This document shows, one piece after another, positions 52,603-64,000 of a stretch of DNA of 64,000 nucleotides. Origin of the DNA: Ornithinimicrobium pekingense DSM 21552 (GTDB lineage: Bacteria; Actinomycetota; Actinomycetes; Actinomycetales; Dermatophilaceae). Positions within the stretch are counted from its first letter, which is position 1; the number at the start of each line of letters is the position of its first letter. The DNA lies in the NCBI RefSeq assembly GCF_000421185.1, contig NZ_ATWJ01000008.1, forward strand, positions 124,001 through 188,000. The letters are read 5' to 3'. Below the pieces are notes generated by a model. The model made no database searches, was not told the DNA's origin, and worked only from the letters and a program-made list of their open reading frames with translations. The position numbers and the translations under genes were made by a program.

Positions 52603-54963
52603 TCAGGCGACGGGGTCGTCGTTGATGGCGATGACGGTACCGCCCAGCACGCTCTCGATCACAGGCTGCCCCACGACCTTGGACGAGGCGAGGTCCTCGT
52701 CGTCCTCGCTGGGGGCGTCACCGTCACCCGGCCCGACCTGGCCGCCAAGGGCAGTCTCCGGGGCCGCGGGGCCGCCGGGCGGCGCGACCGCGGGCGCGGC
52801 CGCGGCGCGGGAGCGCACCCGGGCCGCGGGTGTCTCCGTGGTGGCCTCACCCGGTCCGGGGGCGGCCCAGGCAGGGGCGGAGGTCGTGCGCGCCTGCTGC
52901 GCCCAGTCGGGGCCGGCCGCGGTGGTGGTCGAGGCACCCGCGCCCAGCTGGTCGGCGACCGTGGGCCCGGGCCCCGGGGCGTTGCCCTGCGACGCGTGGC
53001 CCTGCCTCGTCGCTGGCTCGTCACCGGCCGGGCCCTGGGCGGGCCGGCCGGGCGGCTGCGGCGCGGTGCGGACGGGGGCACCGGCGGCGGCACCGTTGGG
53101 GTTGGCCCGCGTCCGGATGCGCACGCCCGGCGGCGGGCCTGCCGGGGGCGCGTCGGAGCCCGTCGCCGGGCCGGCGGGTGGTGCCCCGCCCTGCTGCTGC
53201 GGGGACGTGGGGGCAGGTGTCGGCTGTCCCGACGGTGGCGGGCCGGACGGAGGCGGGCCCGACGGAGGCGGGCCGGACGGAGGCGGGCCGGACGGAGGCG
53301 GGCCGGACGGAGCAGAGGCATCGTCCGGTCCGCCGCCCGGCCCGGTGACGACGGCCTCGACCTGGGTGTCGAGCGCGATCGCCTCGATGAGGGCCTGCCG
53401 CAGGGCCTCCTGGTGCTGGGTGCCGATGAAGTGCCGGATCCAGTTCTCGTCGGGCATGCCGAGCAGCACGCGCCGACCGTCGTAGTCGAGCAGCACCGCC
53501 ATCTGCAGCCCGCTCCACGTGCGTCGGCTGATGAGCCGGACACGCTCGAGGACGTCAGGCCACTGCCGACGCAGCGCCGCGGTGTCGAGGGCGCCGGGGG
53601 CGGACGGGGACGGCTGCTCCGGTGCAGGAGGGGGCTGGGCGCGCTCGGGAGCGGGCTGGGCACGCTCGGGATCACTCCGGTCCGGCCCGGGGACGTGCCG
53701 GCTCTCGTCCGGTGCGTCCGCCGGGGCTGCCGGCCGGGGCTCCTGCGGCGGCGTGACCGCGGGGCCGGCCGACGACGACCCCGTCGCGGCACCGTCGGAG
53801 GCGGTCAGGCGCCGCTCGATCCGGTCCAGGCGTGCGCCATACCCCTCCTCGCCCTCCGCGGCCGGCAGCAGGAGGCGGGCGACGAGCAGCTCGAGCATGA
53901 GCCGGAAGGAGACGGCCCCGGTCATCTCGGACAGTCCGCGGCTGATGATGTCGGCCGCGCGCGACAGCACCTCCGGGCCCTGCACGGACGCCTGGTGGCG
54001 CATGCGCTCGATCTGGTCCGCCGGGAGGCCGGGCAGCAGCCCCGCGGCCGCGGCCGCGTCACCGACCGCGGACAGCACGATGAGGTCGCGGTAGCGCTCG
54101 AGCAGGTCCTCGACGAACCGTCGGGGGTCGTGCCCCGACTCCATCACCTTGTCGACCTGGCCGAAGACGGTCGCGGCGTCGCCCGCGGCCACGGCGTCGA
54201 CCACCGCGTCGAGCAGCTCGACGTCGGTGAAGCCGAGCAGCGCCGCGGTGCGCTCGTAGGTCAGCCCCTGCTCGCCTGCCCCGGAGATGAGCTGGTCGAG
54301 GACCGACAGCGAGTCGCGCACCGAGCCGCCGCCGGCGCGCGTGACGAACGAGAGCACCCCCGGCTCGAGCGCGACGTCCTCCTGCTCGCAGAGCTGCTCC
54401 AGGTAGGTCGTGAGCCGCTGCGGCGGGACGAGGTGGAAGGGGTAGTGGTGGGTGCGGGAGCGGATGGTCGCCAGGACCTTCTCCGGCTCGGTCGTGGCGA
54501 AGATGAACTTCACGTGAGGCGGTGGCTCCTCGACGACCTTGAGGAGGGCGTTGAAGCCGTTGGGCGTCACCATGTGCGCCTCGTCGATGATGTAGACCTT
54601 GTAGCGGGACTGGGCCGGCCCGAAGGCCGCCCGCTCGCGCAGGTCGCGGGCGTCGTCGACGCCACCGTGGCTGGCCGCGTCGATCTCGATCACGTCGACG
54701 GACCCGGCGCCGTCCCGGGCGAGCGCGACGCACGACTGGCAGGCGCCGCACGGGTCGGGGGTGGGGCCCTGCTCGCAGTTGAGGCAGCGGGCCAGGATCC
54801 GGGCGCTGGTGGTCTTGCCGCAGCCGCGCGGGCCCGAGAACAGGTAGGCGTGGTTGACCCGCCCGGAGCGCAGCGCCTGCATGAGCGGCTCAGTGACGTG
54901 CTCCTGCCCGATGACGTCGGCGAAGGACTCGGGCCGGTATCGGCGGTACAGCGCGGTGCTCAC
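52603..54963 (-). CDS. dnaX: DNA polymerase III subunits gamma and tau
   Basis: 786 residues. Walker [13 protein letters not shown], zinc ligands [23 protein letters not shown] in [24 protein letters not shown], and sensor SRTHHYPF. A long Pro/Ala/Gly-rich C-terminal region includes a tandem SGPPP repeat. No slippery A-rich frameshift signal is seen, so tau alone is likely. GTG start. Clamp loader core of the replisome. Confidence 0.96.
53231..53305. repeat. 15-bp tandem repeat in dnaX
   Basis: Five nearly identical copies of GACGGAGGCGGGCCG encode repeated Ser-Gly-Pro-Pro-Pro in the tau linker, an in-frame minisatellite prone to copy-number change without loss of frame. Confidence 0.9.
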
Positions 54964-54988
54964 GGGTCGACCCTAGTCGCCGGCACCG

Positions 54989-57274
54989 TCACCCCTGACC
55001 ACCGTCCACAGGCCGCAGCACCGTCATCCGGTGCGCGGCACGGGTGAGCACCACGTAGAGCGCCCGCACCCCGCCGGCCGACTCCGCGACGATGGCGTCG
55101 GGGTCGACGACCAGGGTCGCGTCGTACTCCAGGCCCTTGGTGGACAGCGGGTCGATGACCAGCACCCGGTCGGCCACGTCCGCCAGTCCGTCGAGCCGGG
55201 CACGCCATACCTCGGGGGTGATGACCGCCACCGAGCCGTCGACCTGCTCCAGCAGGTCGGCCAGCGCGGTCCGCGCGTCCTCGACGAGCCGCTCCGGCGG
55301 GGCCGTGAGCTCGACCGGGTGGTGCCCGGTCTCGCGCACCGCGGCGGGGATGTCGGCGTCGGGGACGTGCTCGCGGATGACCCGTGCCGCGTGGTCGAAG
55401 ATCTCGCGGGCGTTGCGGTAGTTGGTGTCCATGTGGAAGCTGCGTCGCACGTTGCTGCCGAAGGCCTCCTCGCGGGCCCGGGACGACTCGTCCAGGTCCG
55501 ACCACGACGCCTGGGCCAGGTCGCCGACGACGGTCCAGGACGCCCAGCGCCCGCGCCGCCCGAGCATGCGCCACTGCATGGGCGAGAGGTCCTGCGCCTC
55601 GTCGACCAGCACGTGGGCGTACTCGTCGGCGGAGCCGATGCGGCCGGCCAGCAGCCGCGTGCGCGGGTCGCGGGAGACGCGCTCGGAGGCCGTGGGGTCG
55701 GAGGCCACCACCACCGGCCGGCCGTCCTCGTCGGTCGGGGCGAGGGGCCGGGCCGACCCGGCGGCCCCGTCCCCACCGACCCGCAGGGCCGCGACACCGT
55801 ACTGGGAGGCGTCGTCGAGCTCCTCGATCTCGAAGAACCCCCGCTCCTCGCTCGGCAGGTCGACGACCGGGCCGAGCCGGGCGTGCAGGTCGTCGACCAG
55901 CGCGACGTCGGCGACCGTCCACTCCCCGTCGGTCAGCGCGCGGCGGTATGACGCAGCCAGGAGCTGCCCCTCCTCGTCGGACACGACACCCAGGCGCCGC
56001 ACCAGGTCCTGGTCGGCGAGCCAGAGCAGGACCTCGCGGGGGTCGACCGGCCGCCACCACTCCCGCGCGAAGGCCTCGACCTCGCTGGAGTCGACGAAGC
56101 GGTCGACGAACTCGGCGCGCTCGCCCTGCTGCACCTGCTCCCACGCCAGTCCGGCAAGCGTCTCGACCGCCGCGTCGAAGGAGGTGTTGCGGTGGTGGTG
56201 CCGCAGCACCTGGGACCGGGCCCTGCGCAGGTGCGCCTCGGTCAGGCGGATCGCGTGGCCACCCACGAACACGCGCAGCTGCGTCGGGGCGTCCGGTGCG
56301 GGCTCCCGCGAGAGGCGGGCGAGGAGCTGACGGACCCGCAGAGACCCCTTGACCGCGGCCGTGGCGGGCGGGTCCAGACGGGTCGCCGTCATGCCGCCGA
56401 CGACGTCGCCGAGGCTGCGCAGGACCACGCTCTCCTCGCCCAGCGAGGGCAGGACGCGCTCGATGTATGCGGTGTAGGCCGCGGACGGGCCCACGACCAG
56501 CACGCCGCCGCCCTCGAAGCGGCGCCGGTCGGAGTAGAGCAGGTAGGCCGCGCGGTGCAGCGCGACCACGGTCTTGCCGGTGCCCGGGCCGCCGGTGATC
56601 TCGGTGACGCCGCGGGCGGGCGCGCGGATGGCCTCGTCCTGGTGCTGCTGGATGGTCGCGACGATGTCGCGCATGCGGGCGCCGCGGCTGCGGGTGAGCG
56701 CGGCCATGAGGGCGCCGTCGCCCACCACGACGATGTCCTCGGGCGGGTCGGCGACCATGAGGTCGTCCTCGACACCGACGACCTCCTCGCCGCGGCAGCG
56801 CAGCACCCGGCGCCGCAGCACCCCCTGGGGGTCGACGGGCGTGGCCCGGTAGAACGGGGCGGCCGCCGGCGCCCGCCAGTCCACGACGAGCGGCTCGTAG
56901 TCGTCGTCGCGCACCCCGAGGCGGCCGACGTAGCGCACCTCCCGCGTGTCGTGGCCGGAGGCGCCGTCACCACCTGCCCGGCCGGCGTGCTCCAGGTCGA
57001 GACGGCCGAAGACCAGCCCCTCGTGCTGGTGCTCGAGGGAGGCGCGCCGCTTGCTGGCCGAGTAGACGAGCGCGTCGCGCTCGAAGAGCCCGGCCAGCTC
57101 CTCCTCGCGGGGGTCCCCGGTCCCCCGACGGTCGGTCTGGCCGCGGGCCATGCCCTCGGCATGCACCAGCTCGGCCCGTTGCGCCGCCTTGGCGAGCTCG
57201 GCGTAGACACGGTCCACGTGCTCCTGCTCGGCCGCGATCTCGGCGGCGACGAGGTCGTTGGTCGTGGTGCTCAC
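54989..57274 (-). CDS. helD: HelD-like RNA polymerase recycling ATPase
   Basis: 761 residues, UvrD/Rep-like superfamily 1. An N-terminal helical arm (AEIAAEQEHVDRVYAELAKAAQRAELVHAEG) precedes Walker A ITGGPGTGKTVVALHRA, DEAQDLSPMQWRML and a C-terminal RecA lobe ending STKGLEYDATLVVDPD and ALYVVLTRAAHRM. This is the class II HelD found in actinobacteria, which frees stalled RNA polymerase and can aid rifampicin tolerance. GTG start; the upstream 80 bp hold a possible minus-strand -10 (TAGAGT). No rifampicin-associated element is recognised. Confidence 0.9.
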   Translation of the reverse strand: MSTTTNDLVAAEIAAEQEHVDRVYAELAKAAQRAELVHAEGMARGQTDRRGTGDPREEELAGLFERDALVYSASKRRASLEHQHEGLVFGRLDLEHAGRAGGDGASGHDTREVRYVGRLGVRDDDYEPLVVDWRAPAAAPFYRATPVDPQGVLRRRVLRCRGEEVVGVEDDLMVADPPEDIVVVGDGALMAALTRSRGARMRDIVATIQQHQDEAIRAPARGVTEITGGPGTGKTVVALHRAAYLLYSDRRRFEGGGVLVVGPSAAYTAYIERVLPSLGEESVVLRSLGDVVGGMTATRLDPPATAAVKGSLRVRQLLARLSREPAPDAPTQLRVFVGGHAIRLTEAHLRRARSQVLRHHHRNTSFDAAVETLAGLAWEQVQQGERAEFVDRFVDSSEVEAFAREWWRPVDPREVLLWLADQDLVRRLGVVSDEEGQLLAASYRRALTDGEWTVADVALVDDLHARLGPVVDLPSEERGFFEIEELDDASQYGVAALRVGGDGAAGSARPLAPTDEDGRPVVVASDPTASERVSRDPRTRLLAGRIGSADEYAHVLVDEAQDLSPMQWRMLGRRGRWASWTVVGDLAQASWSDLDESSRAREEAFGSNVRRSFHMDTNYRNAREIFDHAARVIREHVPDADIPAAVRETGHHPVELTAPPERLVEDARTALADLLEQVDGSVAVITPEVWRARLDGLADVADRVLVIDPLSTKGLEYDATLVVDPDAIVAESAGGVRALYVVLTRAAHRMTVLRPVDGGQG

Positions 57275-57407
57275 TCGCCCACCCTTCGTCCGGCGTCCTG
57301 CGCCCGGCGCGGTCCTCCACCACCCCTGGCAAAGGACACACTCTATCTGCTGCGCCGGAGGGCGCCGTCGTCCCTGCGCACGCCCGCGCACCGACCGTCG
57401 CAGGCCC

Positions 57408-58439
57408 TCAGATCCAGTCGCGCCTGGCCGCCTGGACCCCGGCCTGGAAGCGGGTCGCCGCCCCCAGCCGGTCCATGAGGTACCGCACCCGGCGCTCGAC
57501 GGTGCGCACGGAGACCGCCATCAGCCGCGCGATGACCTGGTCGCTGGCGCCCGTGGTGAGCAGCGCCAGGATGCGCTGGTCGCGCTCGGCCAGCGGGAGC
57601 CGGTCGGGGGTACGGGGCGCCTCGAGCAGACCGGGCCAGTAGGGGGTCGCCAGCGCCCAGATCGCCTCGAACAGCCGGGTGATCGCCCGGACGGGCGGCG
57701 CCAGCCGCACCTCGAAGGAACCGCCGTCCCGGTCGAAGGTGGTGAGGTCCACGACCGCGGTGACCGAGTCGACGACGACGAGGGAGAAGGGCACGCCGTG
57801 CCCGAAGACCACCGGGTGCCCGTCGGCGCGCAGCTGGTCGACGAACGCCATCGCGGCCGGGTCGTCGAGCAACGAGGTGTCCAGCGCCAGGCGCCGCTCG
57901 ACCCCGTCCCGGACCGCCAGCCGTCCCGGGTCCGCGACCGCCTCGGCCAGCAGCTGTCGCCCGGCCGGGGACCCGTCGACGGCCCACCACACCCGCAGCG
58001 TCGCCGAGCGGTGGACGGAGGCGATCCGGTAGGCGACCGCCTCGGTCCCGTCGATGACGTCGAGGTCGCTGGCCGCCAGCGTGGGCCTCTCCCCGACCGC
58101 CCGGCGCCACAGCGCGTCGACCTCGCCGGCCGTCATGCGCGTCGTCTGCATGCGCCGCTCCACCGCCTCCGCGTAGCGGGGGAGGGCGTCCCGCGGCGGC
58201 ACGACCTCCCAGGCGTCCGGGTCGTCGGTGCTGGCGAGCAGGCCGCGGGCCACCAGCTCCTCGGTCGCGACCGTCACCGCCTCGTCGTCCATGTCCCCGT
58301 GGACCAGCCCCGCGCGGGTGGGCGTGCCCAGGCGGATCGCCGCGATGTAGGCCGCCGAGATGAAGTCCTCGTAGGCCTCCCCGTGCGTGTTGAGCCGGGT
58401 CTCACGCCACCCTCTGCGCCTCGTCACGATGCCCAGCAT
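57408..58439 (-). CDS. LuxR-type transcription regulator
   Basis: 343 residues. The N-terminal 90 residues look like a winged helix (EAYEDFISAAYIAAIRLGTPTRAGLVHGDMDDEAVTVATEELVARGLL), a central ligand-like domain follows, and the C-terminus is a LuxR HTH (LPLAERDQRILALLTTGASDQVIARLMAVSVRTVERRVRYLMDRLGAATRFQAGVQAARRDWI). A TrmB-like N-terminus plus LuxR C-terminus is common in actinobacterial regulators of unknown target. ATG start. It faces the repeat arrays. Confidence 0.85.
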   Translation of the reverse strand: MLGIVTRRRGWRETRLNTHGEAYEDFISAAYIAAIRLGTPTRAGLVHGDMDDEAVTVATEELVARGLLASTDDPDAWEVVPPRDALPRYAEAVERRMQTTRMTAGEVDALWRRAVGERPTLAASDLDVIDGTEAVAYRIASVHRSATLRVWWAVDGSPAGRQLLAEAVADPGRLAVRDGVERRLALDTSLLDDPAAMAFVDQLRADGHPVVFGHGVPFSLVVVDSVTAVVDLTTFDRDGGSFEVRLAPPVRAITRLFEAIWALATPYWPGLLEAPRTPDRLPLAERDQRILALLTTGASDQVIARLMAVSVRTVERRVRYLMDRLGAATRFQAGVQAARRDWI

Positions 58440-58593
58440 GGCGGATTCCCGTCATTGTCGCGATCCCGTCAAGGCCCGGCGTGACATCGGCGAGGCGGTG
58501 TGCCACTCTTGGTGGTACCGGCTTCGGTCGGTGCAGGGATTGTGCGAGTCGCCGGGCATGCCCCCCATCAGCCTGGCAGACCCTGCCCTGCGC

Positions 58594-58637
58594 GTGGCCC
58601 TCCTGGGAGTTACCCCCCTGCCTTCCAGGAGGGCCAC
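58594..58637. other. 13-bp perfect hairpin in the purine upstream region
   Basis: GTGGCCCTCCTGG pairs with CCAGGAGGGCCAC around 18 nt and is followed by TCTT on the plus strand. It lies between divergent units, so it terminates neither neighbour; it may end a short transcript or form a leader structure. Confidence 0.55.
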
Positions 58638-58663
58638 TCTTATGCCCCCGCGCGCCCCTCACG

Positions 58664-58759
58664 ACCGACGACGTCGTGTGCACGCCACAACCTTCACCGA
58701 CGACGTCGTGTGCACGCGATCCTGGTGACCGAGGACGTCGTGCGGACACCGAGCGCCCA
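58664..58759 (+). repeat. 32-bp tandem repeat array, plus orientation, three units
   Basis: Cores beginning ACCGACGACGTCGTGTGCAC recur at 58664, 58696 and 58728 at exactly 32-bp spacing, with about 11 bp of differing sequence between them. The core holds two palindromes, ACGACGTCGT and GTGYGCAC. Because 32 is not a multiple of three it cannot be a repeat inside a reading frame. Confidence 0.85.
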
Positions 58760-58774
58760 GGCCCCGTCGGCCAG

Positions 58775-58902
58775 CGCGTGACGAACGAGCACATCACGTC
58801 CCCGGTCGCGTGAAGGGCGTGCGCACCACGTCCCCGGTCGCGTGAGGGGCGTGCGCACCACGTCCCCGGTCGCGTGAGGGGCGTGCGCACCACGTCCTCG
58901 GT
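58775..58902 (-). repeat. 32-bp tandem repeat array, minus orientation, four units
   Basis: On the minus strand the cores read ACCGRGGACGTGGTGCGCAC, the same sequence family as the plus array, at plus-strand spans beginning 58787, 58819, 58851 and 58883, exactly 32 bp apart. Three units share the intervening 12 bp. The first is degenerate. The array ends 55 bp before the purD start. Confidence 0.85.
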
Positions 58903-58957
58903 GGGGTCGTGCGCCCGGAGCCAGGCCGCTCAGCGCACGCCGGTAGGCTCGACCGGC

Positions 58958-61285
58958 GTGAAGGTCCTTCTCCTCGGCTCCGGAGCACGTGAGCACGCCC
59001 TGGCCCGTTCGCTCGTGGCCGACCCCGACGTCGAGGAGCTGACCGCGCTGCCGGGCAACCCCGGGATCGCGGCCGTGGCCCGGTGCCTGTCCGGCGACCC
59101 CTCCGTCCCCGCCGACGTCGTGCACCTCGCGCAGGAGCTGGCGGTGGACCTCGTCGTGGTCGGCCCGGAGGCCCCGCTCGTCGCGGGTGTCGCCGACGCC
59201 CTCGCCGCCGCAGGGATCGCCTGCTTCGGGCCCACCGCCGCCGCGGCCCGGCTCGAGGGCAGCAAGGCCTTCGCCAAGGAGGTGATGGCCGCCGTCGGCG
59301 TGCCCACCGCCGCCGCGCACGTCTGCACGACCCTCGAGGAGGCCGCCGCCGCGCTGGACGCGACCGGTGCGCCCTACGTCGTCAAGGAGGACGGTCTGGC
59401 CGCGGGCAAGGGCGTCGTCGTGACCTCCGACCGGGACGCGGCGCTGGAGCACGCCTCCGCGTGCGTCGGCCGGGAGGGGGGCCGGGTCGTGGTCGAGGAC
59501 TACCTGGACGGCCCCGAGGTCTCCCTCTTCTGCATCGCCGACGGTCGCACCGTCGTCCCGCTGGCCCCCGCCCAGGACTTCAAACGGGTCGGGGACGGTG
59601 ACGCCGGGCCCAACACGGGGGGAATGGGCGCCTACACGCCGCTGCTCTGGGCGCCCGAGGGCCTCGTGGACGAGGTCGTGCGCACGGTGGCCCAGCCGAC
59701 GATCGACGAGATGGCGCGTCGGGGCACCCCTTTCACCGGAGTCCTCTACGTCGGGCTCGCCCTCTGCGCCGACGGGCCGAGGGTCGTGGAGTTCAACGCC
59801 CGTTTCGGGGACCCTGAGACGCAGTCGGTCCTCGCGCGGCTGGAGACCCCGCTCGCGGGAGTCCTGCTGGCGGCCGCCCAGGGGCGTCTCGCCGAGCTCC
59901 CACCGCTCCGGTGGTCGCCGCAGGCCAGCGTGACCGTCGTGCTGGCGGCTGACGGCTACCCAGCCGCTCCGCGCACCGGAGACCCGGTCACCGGCCTCGA
60001 GGAGGCTGCCTCGGTCGGGGGCGTGCATGTCCTCCACGCAGGCACGCGTCTCCGGGAGGACGGCACGCTGGTCTCCTCCGGGGGGCGGGTGCTCAGCGTG
60101 GTCGCCCTGGGCGAGGACCTGGCGCAGGCCCGCGCCCGCGCCTACGCCGCCGTGCACCGCATACACCTCGACGGGTCCCACTTCCGCGGCGACATCGCGC
60201 GGGCCGCGGAGCAGGGCGACGTCACCGTGCCCGGCGCCACCACACCCGACGTCCGTTCCCCCTCGGAGGTACCCGTGGACCTGCCCGGGCACGAGCTGCT
60301 CTACACCGGCAAGGTCCGCGGCCTCTACGCCCCGCTGGACCCCGCCACCGGTGAGCGCGACGACTCACGGCTGCTGCTGGTGGCCTCCGACCGCATCAGC
60401 GCCTACGACCACATCCTCGACACCCCCATCCCCGACAAGGGCACCGTGCTGACCCAGCTGTCGCTGTGGTGGTTCGACCAGCTCTCCGGCGTGGTCGACG
60501 CGCCGCACCACGTCGTGTCCGCCGACGTGCCGGCGGCGGTCGCCGGCCGCGGGGTCTACGTGCGCAGGCTGCGGATGCTGCCGGTGGAGTGCGTCGCCCG
60601 CGCCTTCCTCACGGGCGGGGGCCTCGCGGAGTATGCCGCGACCGGCGCCGTCTCCGGCGTGCGCCTGCCCGAGGGGCTCGCCGACGGATCCCGGCTGCCG
60701 CAGCCCGTCTTCACGCCCAGCACCAAGGCCCCCGTCGGGGAGCACGACCAGCCGATCTCCTACGAGGACGTCGAGCAGCTCGTGGGGCCCGGGCTCGCAG
60801 CGAGGCTCCGCGACCTGACCGTGACGATCCTGCGGCACGGCAACGAGATCGCCGGCCGGCGCGGCATCCTCATCGCGGACACGAAGGTGGAGTTCGGCGT
60901 TGACCCGCACCAGCTGGCCGACGCGCTGGGGATCTCGGCCGAGGCGGCCATGGACGGCCCCGTCGACTGGGCCGCCGTGGACCCCGACGTCGTCGACGTG
61001 GTGCTGGCGGACGAGGTCCTCACCCCCGACTCCTCCCGCTTCTGGCGCGCGAGCGAGTGGGCACCCGGCCAGCCCCAGACGTCCTACGACAAGCAGGTCC
61101 TGCGGGACTGGCTCACCTCGCCCGCCAGCGGGTGGGACCGGTCCTCCGACGCGCCGCCGCCCCCGCTGCCGGAGGAGGTCGTGCAGCTGACGCGCGCCCG
61201 CTACGTCGAGGCCTACGAGAACCTCACCGGCCGGCCGTTCACCGGTGCGGCGACGACCCCCAACGACTCCGTCCCCACCGCCTAG
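58958..61285 (+). CDS. purD/purC: Fused GAR synthetase (PurD) and SAICAR synthetase (PurC)
   Basis: 775 residues in one uninterrupted frame. Residues 1-420 are Pur[46 protein letters not shown] and [12 protein letters not shown], an ATP-grasp ligase joining phosphoribosylamine and glycine. A linker of about 20 residues leads to PurC from about residue 440: [42 protein letters not shown] and [12 protein letters not shown], which adds aspartate to CAIR. Both modules look complete. GTG start fits the usual MKVLL N-terminus. A GTG preceded by GGAGG occurs exactly at the PurC boundary. Followed 11 bp later by purL. Confidence 0.92.
60266..60277 (+). promoter_or_regulatory. Internal ribosome-binding-site-like element at the PurC boundary
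   Basis: GAGGTACCC stands directly before an in-frame GTG (60275), part of CGGAGG five bases upstream, at the point where free-standing PurC proteins begin. It may allow a separate PurC of 336 residues. Confidence 0.6.
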
Positions 61286-61296
61286 GAGCCGCCGCG

Positions 61297-64000
<2,704 letters not shown>

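Follow-up and report, generated by a model that had tools for sequence, protein, structure and literature searches.

The 64,000-nucleotide stretch of Ornithinimicrobium pekingense DSM 21552 analysed in this study (hereafter the window) holds, at 58958..61285 on the forward strand, a gene in which two enzymes of purine synthesis, PurD (glycinamide ribonucleotide, GAR, synthetase) and PurC (phosphoribosylaminoimidazole-succinocarboxamide, SAICAR, synthetase), are encoded one after the other. A first reading of the sequence alone (the original prediction) had claimed a single open frame running from PurD into PurC, and this is indeed what translation gives, namely 775 residues and a stop, without an internal stop codon and with both domains complete on either side of a disordered linker. 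The features of the gene are the following, pLDDT being the predicted local distance difference test of the structure model.

58944..58949, forward strand: TAGGCT, a -10-like box of a putative leaderless promoter, its function being presumed from the sequence and from TANNNT in relatives
58958..60205, forward strand: PurD (GAR synthetase) domain, residues 1-416, with a GTG start (TIGR00877; GARS_N/A/C; RFGDPETQ)
60206..60289, forward strand: interdomain linker, residues 417-444 (pLDDT below 50 at residues 422-436; in frame in 86 fused genes)
60263..60277, forward strand: GGAGG followed by GTG (GTG at 60275), a putative internal start of free PurC (sequence; duplex energy -10.8 with the anti-Shine-Dalgarno)
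60290..61282, forward strand: PurC (SAICAR synthetase) domain, residues 445-775 (NF010568; 3r9r/6yvq; Foldseek)
60911..60997, forward strand: insert in the PurC domain at residues about 652-680, predicted as two short helices (absent from relatives in the PDB; pLDDT about 90)

Both halves are recognised by profile models of the single enzymes. The PurD half scores 477.7 bits against TIGR00877 (cut-off 288) over residues 1-416, and the PurC half 342.7 bits against NF010568 (cut-off 251), from residue 441 and in two stretches; with the older model TIGR00081 it reaches 185.3 bits, slightly below the cut-off of 189.9. The broken match and this shortfall both arise because the insert near residues 652-680 splits the PurC match. 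The Pfam families GARS_N, GARS_A, GARS_C and SAICAR_synt are each found above their cut-offs, and Pfam detects in the 775 residues neither of the further domains of a GART-type protein, namely aminoimidazole ribonucleotide (AIR) synthetase and GAR transformylase. The PurD signature R[LF]GDPEx[EQIM], as quoted in an excerpt of PMC3261824, is present as RFGDPETQ at residues 282-289, and R282 to Q289 are invariant across 43 fused proteins. In its own genome the fusion seems to be the sole source of either enzyme, as a search for SAICAR synthetase matched the fusion gene only, and a search with GARS_A found no second full GAR synthetase, returning the fusion gene and a partial stretch of 27.3 bits on contig C7. 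The insert of about 28 residues in the PurC half is found in members of the window genus, fused as well as split, being shorter in some, and is missing in the Brevibacterium row as well as in the PDB relatives. That it is a by-product of fusing is unlikely, as split members of the genus align across it unbroken.

The structural comparisons point the same way. In an AlphaFold2 model built on an alignment of 43 of the 76 unbroken fused proteins (mean pLDDT 87.2, predicted template modelling score, pTM, 0.58), both domains are well modelled and the linker is disordered. Searched against the PDB, the first half hits PurD chains and the second half PurC chains, the latter with E about 1e-83 for 3r9r and 6yvq, both PurC of Mycobacterium abscessus. 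With Foldseek, the PurC half aligns to 6yvq over 321 columns with a TM-score of 0.86 by target length, which indicates that the entire domain has the fold of SAICAR synthetase, and the PurD half reaches 0.84-0.91 by target length against PurD chains. Among the best 50 Foldseek rows there is no solved PurD-PurC protein, the halves matching separate PurD and PurC chains. Across the 86 fused genes of five genera the linkers span 18-89 residues (median 38) and are rich in alanine (23%), glycine (12%) and proline (11%). Hence, on the strength of the model, we take the protein to be two independent ligase domains joined by a flexible tether.

The homologue search proposed in the original prediction recovered the same domain order in 86 of 135 genomes, distributed over five genera and four families, and every one of these genera also has split members in which purC adjoins purD. 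Fused genes were counted in 9 of 31 genomes of the window genus (g1), 48 of 57 in g12, 2 of 6 in g102, 7 of 11 in g145 and 20 of 30 in g92. The other 49 genomes comprise 46 that are split or unresolved, one without a match (G1290) and two with junctions that were not read (G1297 and G1311), in which the junction region is covered without a stop and which lie outside the 86. Three of the 48 fused genes in g12 (G279, G419 and G1264) are interrupted at some other point by breaks or the end of a contig, and two of the 22 genomes of the window genus counted as not fused are doubtful: G008, which has three PurD pieces and is itself nearly identical to the fused G020, and G002, with frame breaks in both domains. 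We assign g12 to Brevibacterium on the grounds that several of its genomes share their linker peptide with the named locus of B. iodinum; B. iodinum is also the sole fused locus among the 80 matches listed from named genomes. The family of the window was likewise assigned as Dermatophilaceae, since the junction peptide of the named Austwickia locus recurs in one genome of that family. Outside the five genera, no unbroken spanning row was present among the matches listed in samples of the order (396), class (394) and phylum (396), which overlap, lie within one phylum and could let frame-broken fusions or those with very long linkers escape. Within the family of the window (186 genomes), the 13 other rows that span both domains are all split by a stop.

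Could sequencing or assembly have merged two separate genes? Frame breaks do occur in this region in some genomes of the window genus (G002, G008, G011 and G021). However, 9 of the 31 genomes in the genus, with identities of 65-100%, have the frame intact through both domains, and intact frames also occur in the four further genera. The linker, too, changes in the manner of coding sequence: 121 of 202 differences between fused relatives fall at third codon positions (15 disjoint pairs with linkers of equal length; p about 1e-14, assuming independent differences). Judged by this pattern, the linker evolves as translated coding sequence. Together, the unbroken homologues and the third-position changes rule out the artefact, and the probability we would leave to it is negligible. 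In the four genomes named above (loci L124-L127) the breaks lie within purD, and in two of these genomes they probably reflect low assembly quality. On these sequence grounds, the fusion gene is real, functional-looking, recurrent and mechanistically modest, with predicted PurD and PurC activities.

The split relatives suggest how such a gene came about. Of the 46 split pairs in the five genera, 35 have a candidate purC start at most 4 nt from the purD stop, and 43 have purC in a frame other than that of purD; therefore, fusion mostly needed an insertion or deletion beyond the loss of a stop, and stop loss alone is disfavoured as the origin. On a FastTree phylogeny of 188 PurD+PurC rows from which the linker was removed, parsimony requires at least 15 changes between the fused and the split state, with changes inside every genus (4 in g1, or 3 without the doubtful G008, 3 in g12, 1 in g102, 2 in g145 and 4 in g92). 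Brevibacterium shows three separate fused groups amid split ones, and placing the nine fused genes of the window genus in one clade is rejected by the approximately unbiased (AU) test (p-AU 0.0006), which rules out a single origin within that genus. From these trees we infer that the fusion arose or was undone several times. Since purD and purC already adjoin in split relatives, gene order rather than pathway order is the likely cause of the fusion.

Upstream of the gene, 181 of 186 relatives, fused and split, have a TANNNT box that begins 12-14 nt ahead of the start of PurD, as against 10 of 930 background windows, and the five relatives that lack it all lie outside the five fusion-bearing genera. 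A promoter of the leaderless type at purD thus seems conserved across the order (58944-58960 in the window, and relatives), and the fusion mRNA appears to be leaderless, starting at GTG 58958. A start further upstream, at 58874, which would give a frame of 803 residues, was rejected, since the position of the TANNNT box points to 58958.

Fused and split genes also differ at the junction itself. The linker and its surroundings are free of ATG in 80 of 87 fused genes, whereas an ATG candidate is present in 78 of 99 split pairs, and the median of the best Shine-Dalgarno energy is weaker in fused genes (-5.8 versus -7.0, p 0.0027). The mechanism that we propose begins with purD and purC side by side in the purine operon, where they would have fused repeatedly, usually through a small insertion or deletion. 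purC would thereby have been freed from a ribosome start of its own, a single leaderless initiation, placed at the GTG of purD and ahead of purL, yielding a bifunctional polypeptide whose PurD domain would make GAR and whose linked PurC domain would make SAICAR, with both ATP-dependent ligases produced 1:1 from that one initiation; the proposal involves no channelling from one site to the other. We regard it as quite probable, going by the sequence comparisons, that operon neighbours fused repeatedly in this way and that the resulting bifunctional protein is made from a single leaderless start, with the ligases equal in amount.

Several observations weigh against this account. The control for third codon positions, taken from intergenic sequence, comprised 2 usable pairs with 3 differences and is too small to use; one clade for the seven fused genes nearest to the window is not rejected (p-AU 0.143); many branches within g92 and g145 are weakly placed; and the trees do not distinguish gains from losses of the fusion. 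Furthermore, the linker in the window has GGAGG five bases ahead of GTG 60275, at -10.8 the best such site among the relatives, the same internal arrangement is found in the nearest relative, G013, and a linker start at -8 or better occurs in 16 of 86 fused genes, compared with 20 of 45 split purC starts.

The latter findings raise the alternative of one gene with two products, in which a start at the linker GTG 60275 would yield free PurC, perhaps supplying the main PurC activity or an oligomer of its own. The GGAGGTACCC-GTG arrangement of G000 and G013, with its energy of -10.8, fits this idea, as does the fact that such a free PurC would begin right at the boundary of the domain, with residue 440. 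However, G003 and G020 lack the site, G016, G024, G015 and G004 have a weaker one, and in 6 of 87 fused genes the searched stretch contains neither ATG nor GTG nor TTG. Moreover, the linker has no clear advantage over chance sites within PurD: sites at -8 or better number 19 in 184 codons of linker and 114 in 1755 inside PurD, a slight excess in the linker that is not significant (p 0.064), and therefore most such linker sites look like chance. We hence consider two products improbable as the general explanation, and on the basis of its site we regard a small amount of free PurC in the window species as possible. A different route to separate enzymes would be translation of the whole fusion followed by cutting of the linker by a protease. 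The linker is predicted to be disordered and its length varies rapidly, as such a route might allow, but the linkers show no conserved motif for cleavage, and we hold this to be very unlikely.

What the fusion might contribute to the pathway is a separate question. PurD catalyses step 2 and PurC step 7 in the numbering of an excerpt of PMC10912719 (step 8 when PurK and PurE count as two steps), which bears out the earlier remark that the steps are not successive and that the fusion is not simple channelling between neighbouring steps; as the two steps are not consecutive, direct channelling from PurD to PurC is unlikely. The tethering might nevertheless be useful in itself, by keeping the two enzymes close within a bacterial cluster of purine enzymes, in which case selection would act on contact and not on dose. 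The repeated fusion across genera speaks for this, as do, in the parts of the sources consulted, a dense two-hybrid network in E. coli with PurK, PurE and PurC at its centre (PMC10912719) and a significant interaction propensity of PurD and PurC (PMC12583656). On the other side, linkers of such varied length and a pTM of that size support no fixed arrangement of the domains, and adjacency alone accounts for which genes fused, so that we see only a small chance for selection on contact. It is likewise doubtful, although conceivable, that the repeated tethering within one actinobacterial order reflects a usefulness of either closeness or 1:1 dose, with the window species as an intermediate that still makes some free PurC.

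Fusions of purine enzymes are well known, and the present one shares parts with several of them. The PurD half has the domain set and motifs of PurD (TIGR00877; E. coli 1gso) and differs by the PurC that follows at its C-terminus, whereas the PurC half shares the whole domain with M. abscessus PurC (NF010568; 3r9r/6yvq; about 48% identity in the structural alignment) and differs in having no N-terminal start of its own and in the genus-specific insert at about 652-680. According to an excerpt of PMC10912719, the known partners of PurD are PurM and PurN (eukaryotic GART, yeast PurDM), and that of PurC is PurE (PAICS). GART (PurD-PurM-PurN) also joins non-consecutive steps (2, 3 and 5, same excerpt), but with partners other than PurC, and PAICS (AIR carboxylase-SAICAR synthetase) is likewise a fusion of purine enzymes in which, however, PurC is joined to PurE and not to PurD. 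Archaeal PurN-PurH1 and PurE-PurE, described in the excerpt of PMC3261824, are also prokaryotic fusions of neighbouring purine genes, although of other enzymes. The closest parallel is found in Francisella, where one locus is named purCD (FTL_0396 / FTT_0894; excerpts of PMC2933595, PMC3660459 and PMC3796476) and purMCD is described as encoding three enzymes (excerpt of PMC2429968). Both enzymes likewise belong to one locus there, and the name, on which alone the comparison is made, suggests PurC first, as opposed to PurD first here.

The original prediction had not known PurD-PurC as a standard form. This holds in so far as we found no account of an actinobacterial PurD-PurC fusion in the open-licence literature of PubMed Central, subscription papers lying outside that scope, but the arrangement is no one-off, given its recurrence in five genera. 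The novelty is this recurrence and not a new kind of system; the pairing is already known from Francisella purCD. As such, the fusion offers a natural replicate experiment, with one enzyme pair fused or split in sister species of at least five genera, that allows asking whether fusing non-consecutive enzymes alters flux or dose, or whether it follows neutrally from the order of genes in the operon. In addition, protein databases surely contain fused sequences, and annotation pipelines name such proteins by one half, so that purC may look missing.

Downstream, purL starts 11 nt after the fusion stop and includes a PurQ-like domain.

61297..64000, forward strand: purL, long single-chain form of 1305 amino acids, running beyond the end of the window (NF003672, 1908.6 bits; locus L123:9297-13214)

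No RNA element was found near the fusion gene at gathering scores in 54000-64000. Upstream, between a regulator gene and purD, an array with a period of 32 bp and the core GTGYRCACSACGTC occupies 58651-58921, with three units on one strand (58651-58750) followed by four inverted ones (58762-58921) and a self-match at lag 32 of 0.485 against about 0.3. The exact core occurs elsewhere once each in L023 and L200 among 317 loci, and is absent from the nearest relative G013. Beyond the array, two genes are divergent from purD on the reverse strand, one at 57408-58439 for a protein with a LuxR-type DNA-binding end, and one at 54989-57391 for a HelD/HelR-like RNA-polymerase recycling ATPase (360.7 bits, below the NCBIfam cut-off of 1100).
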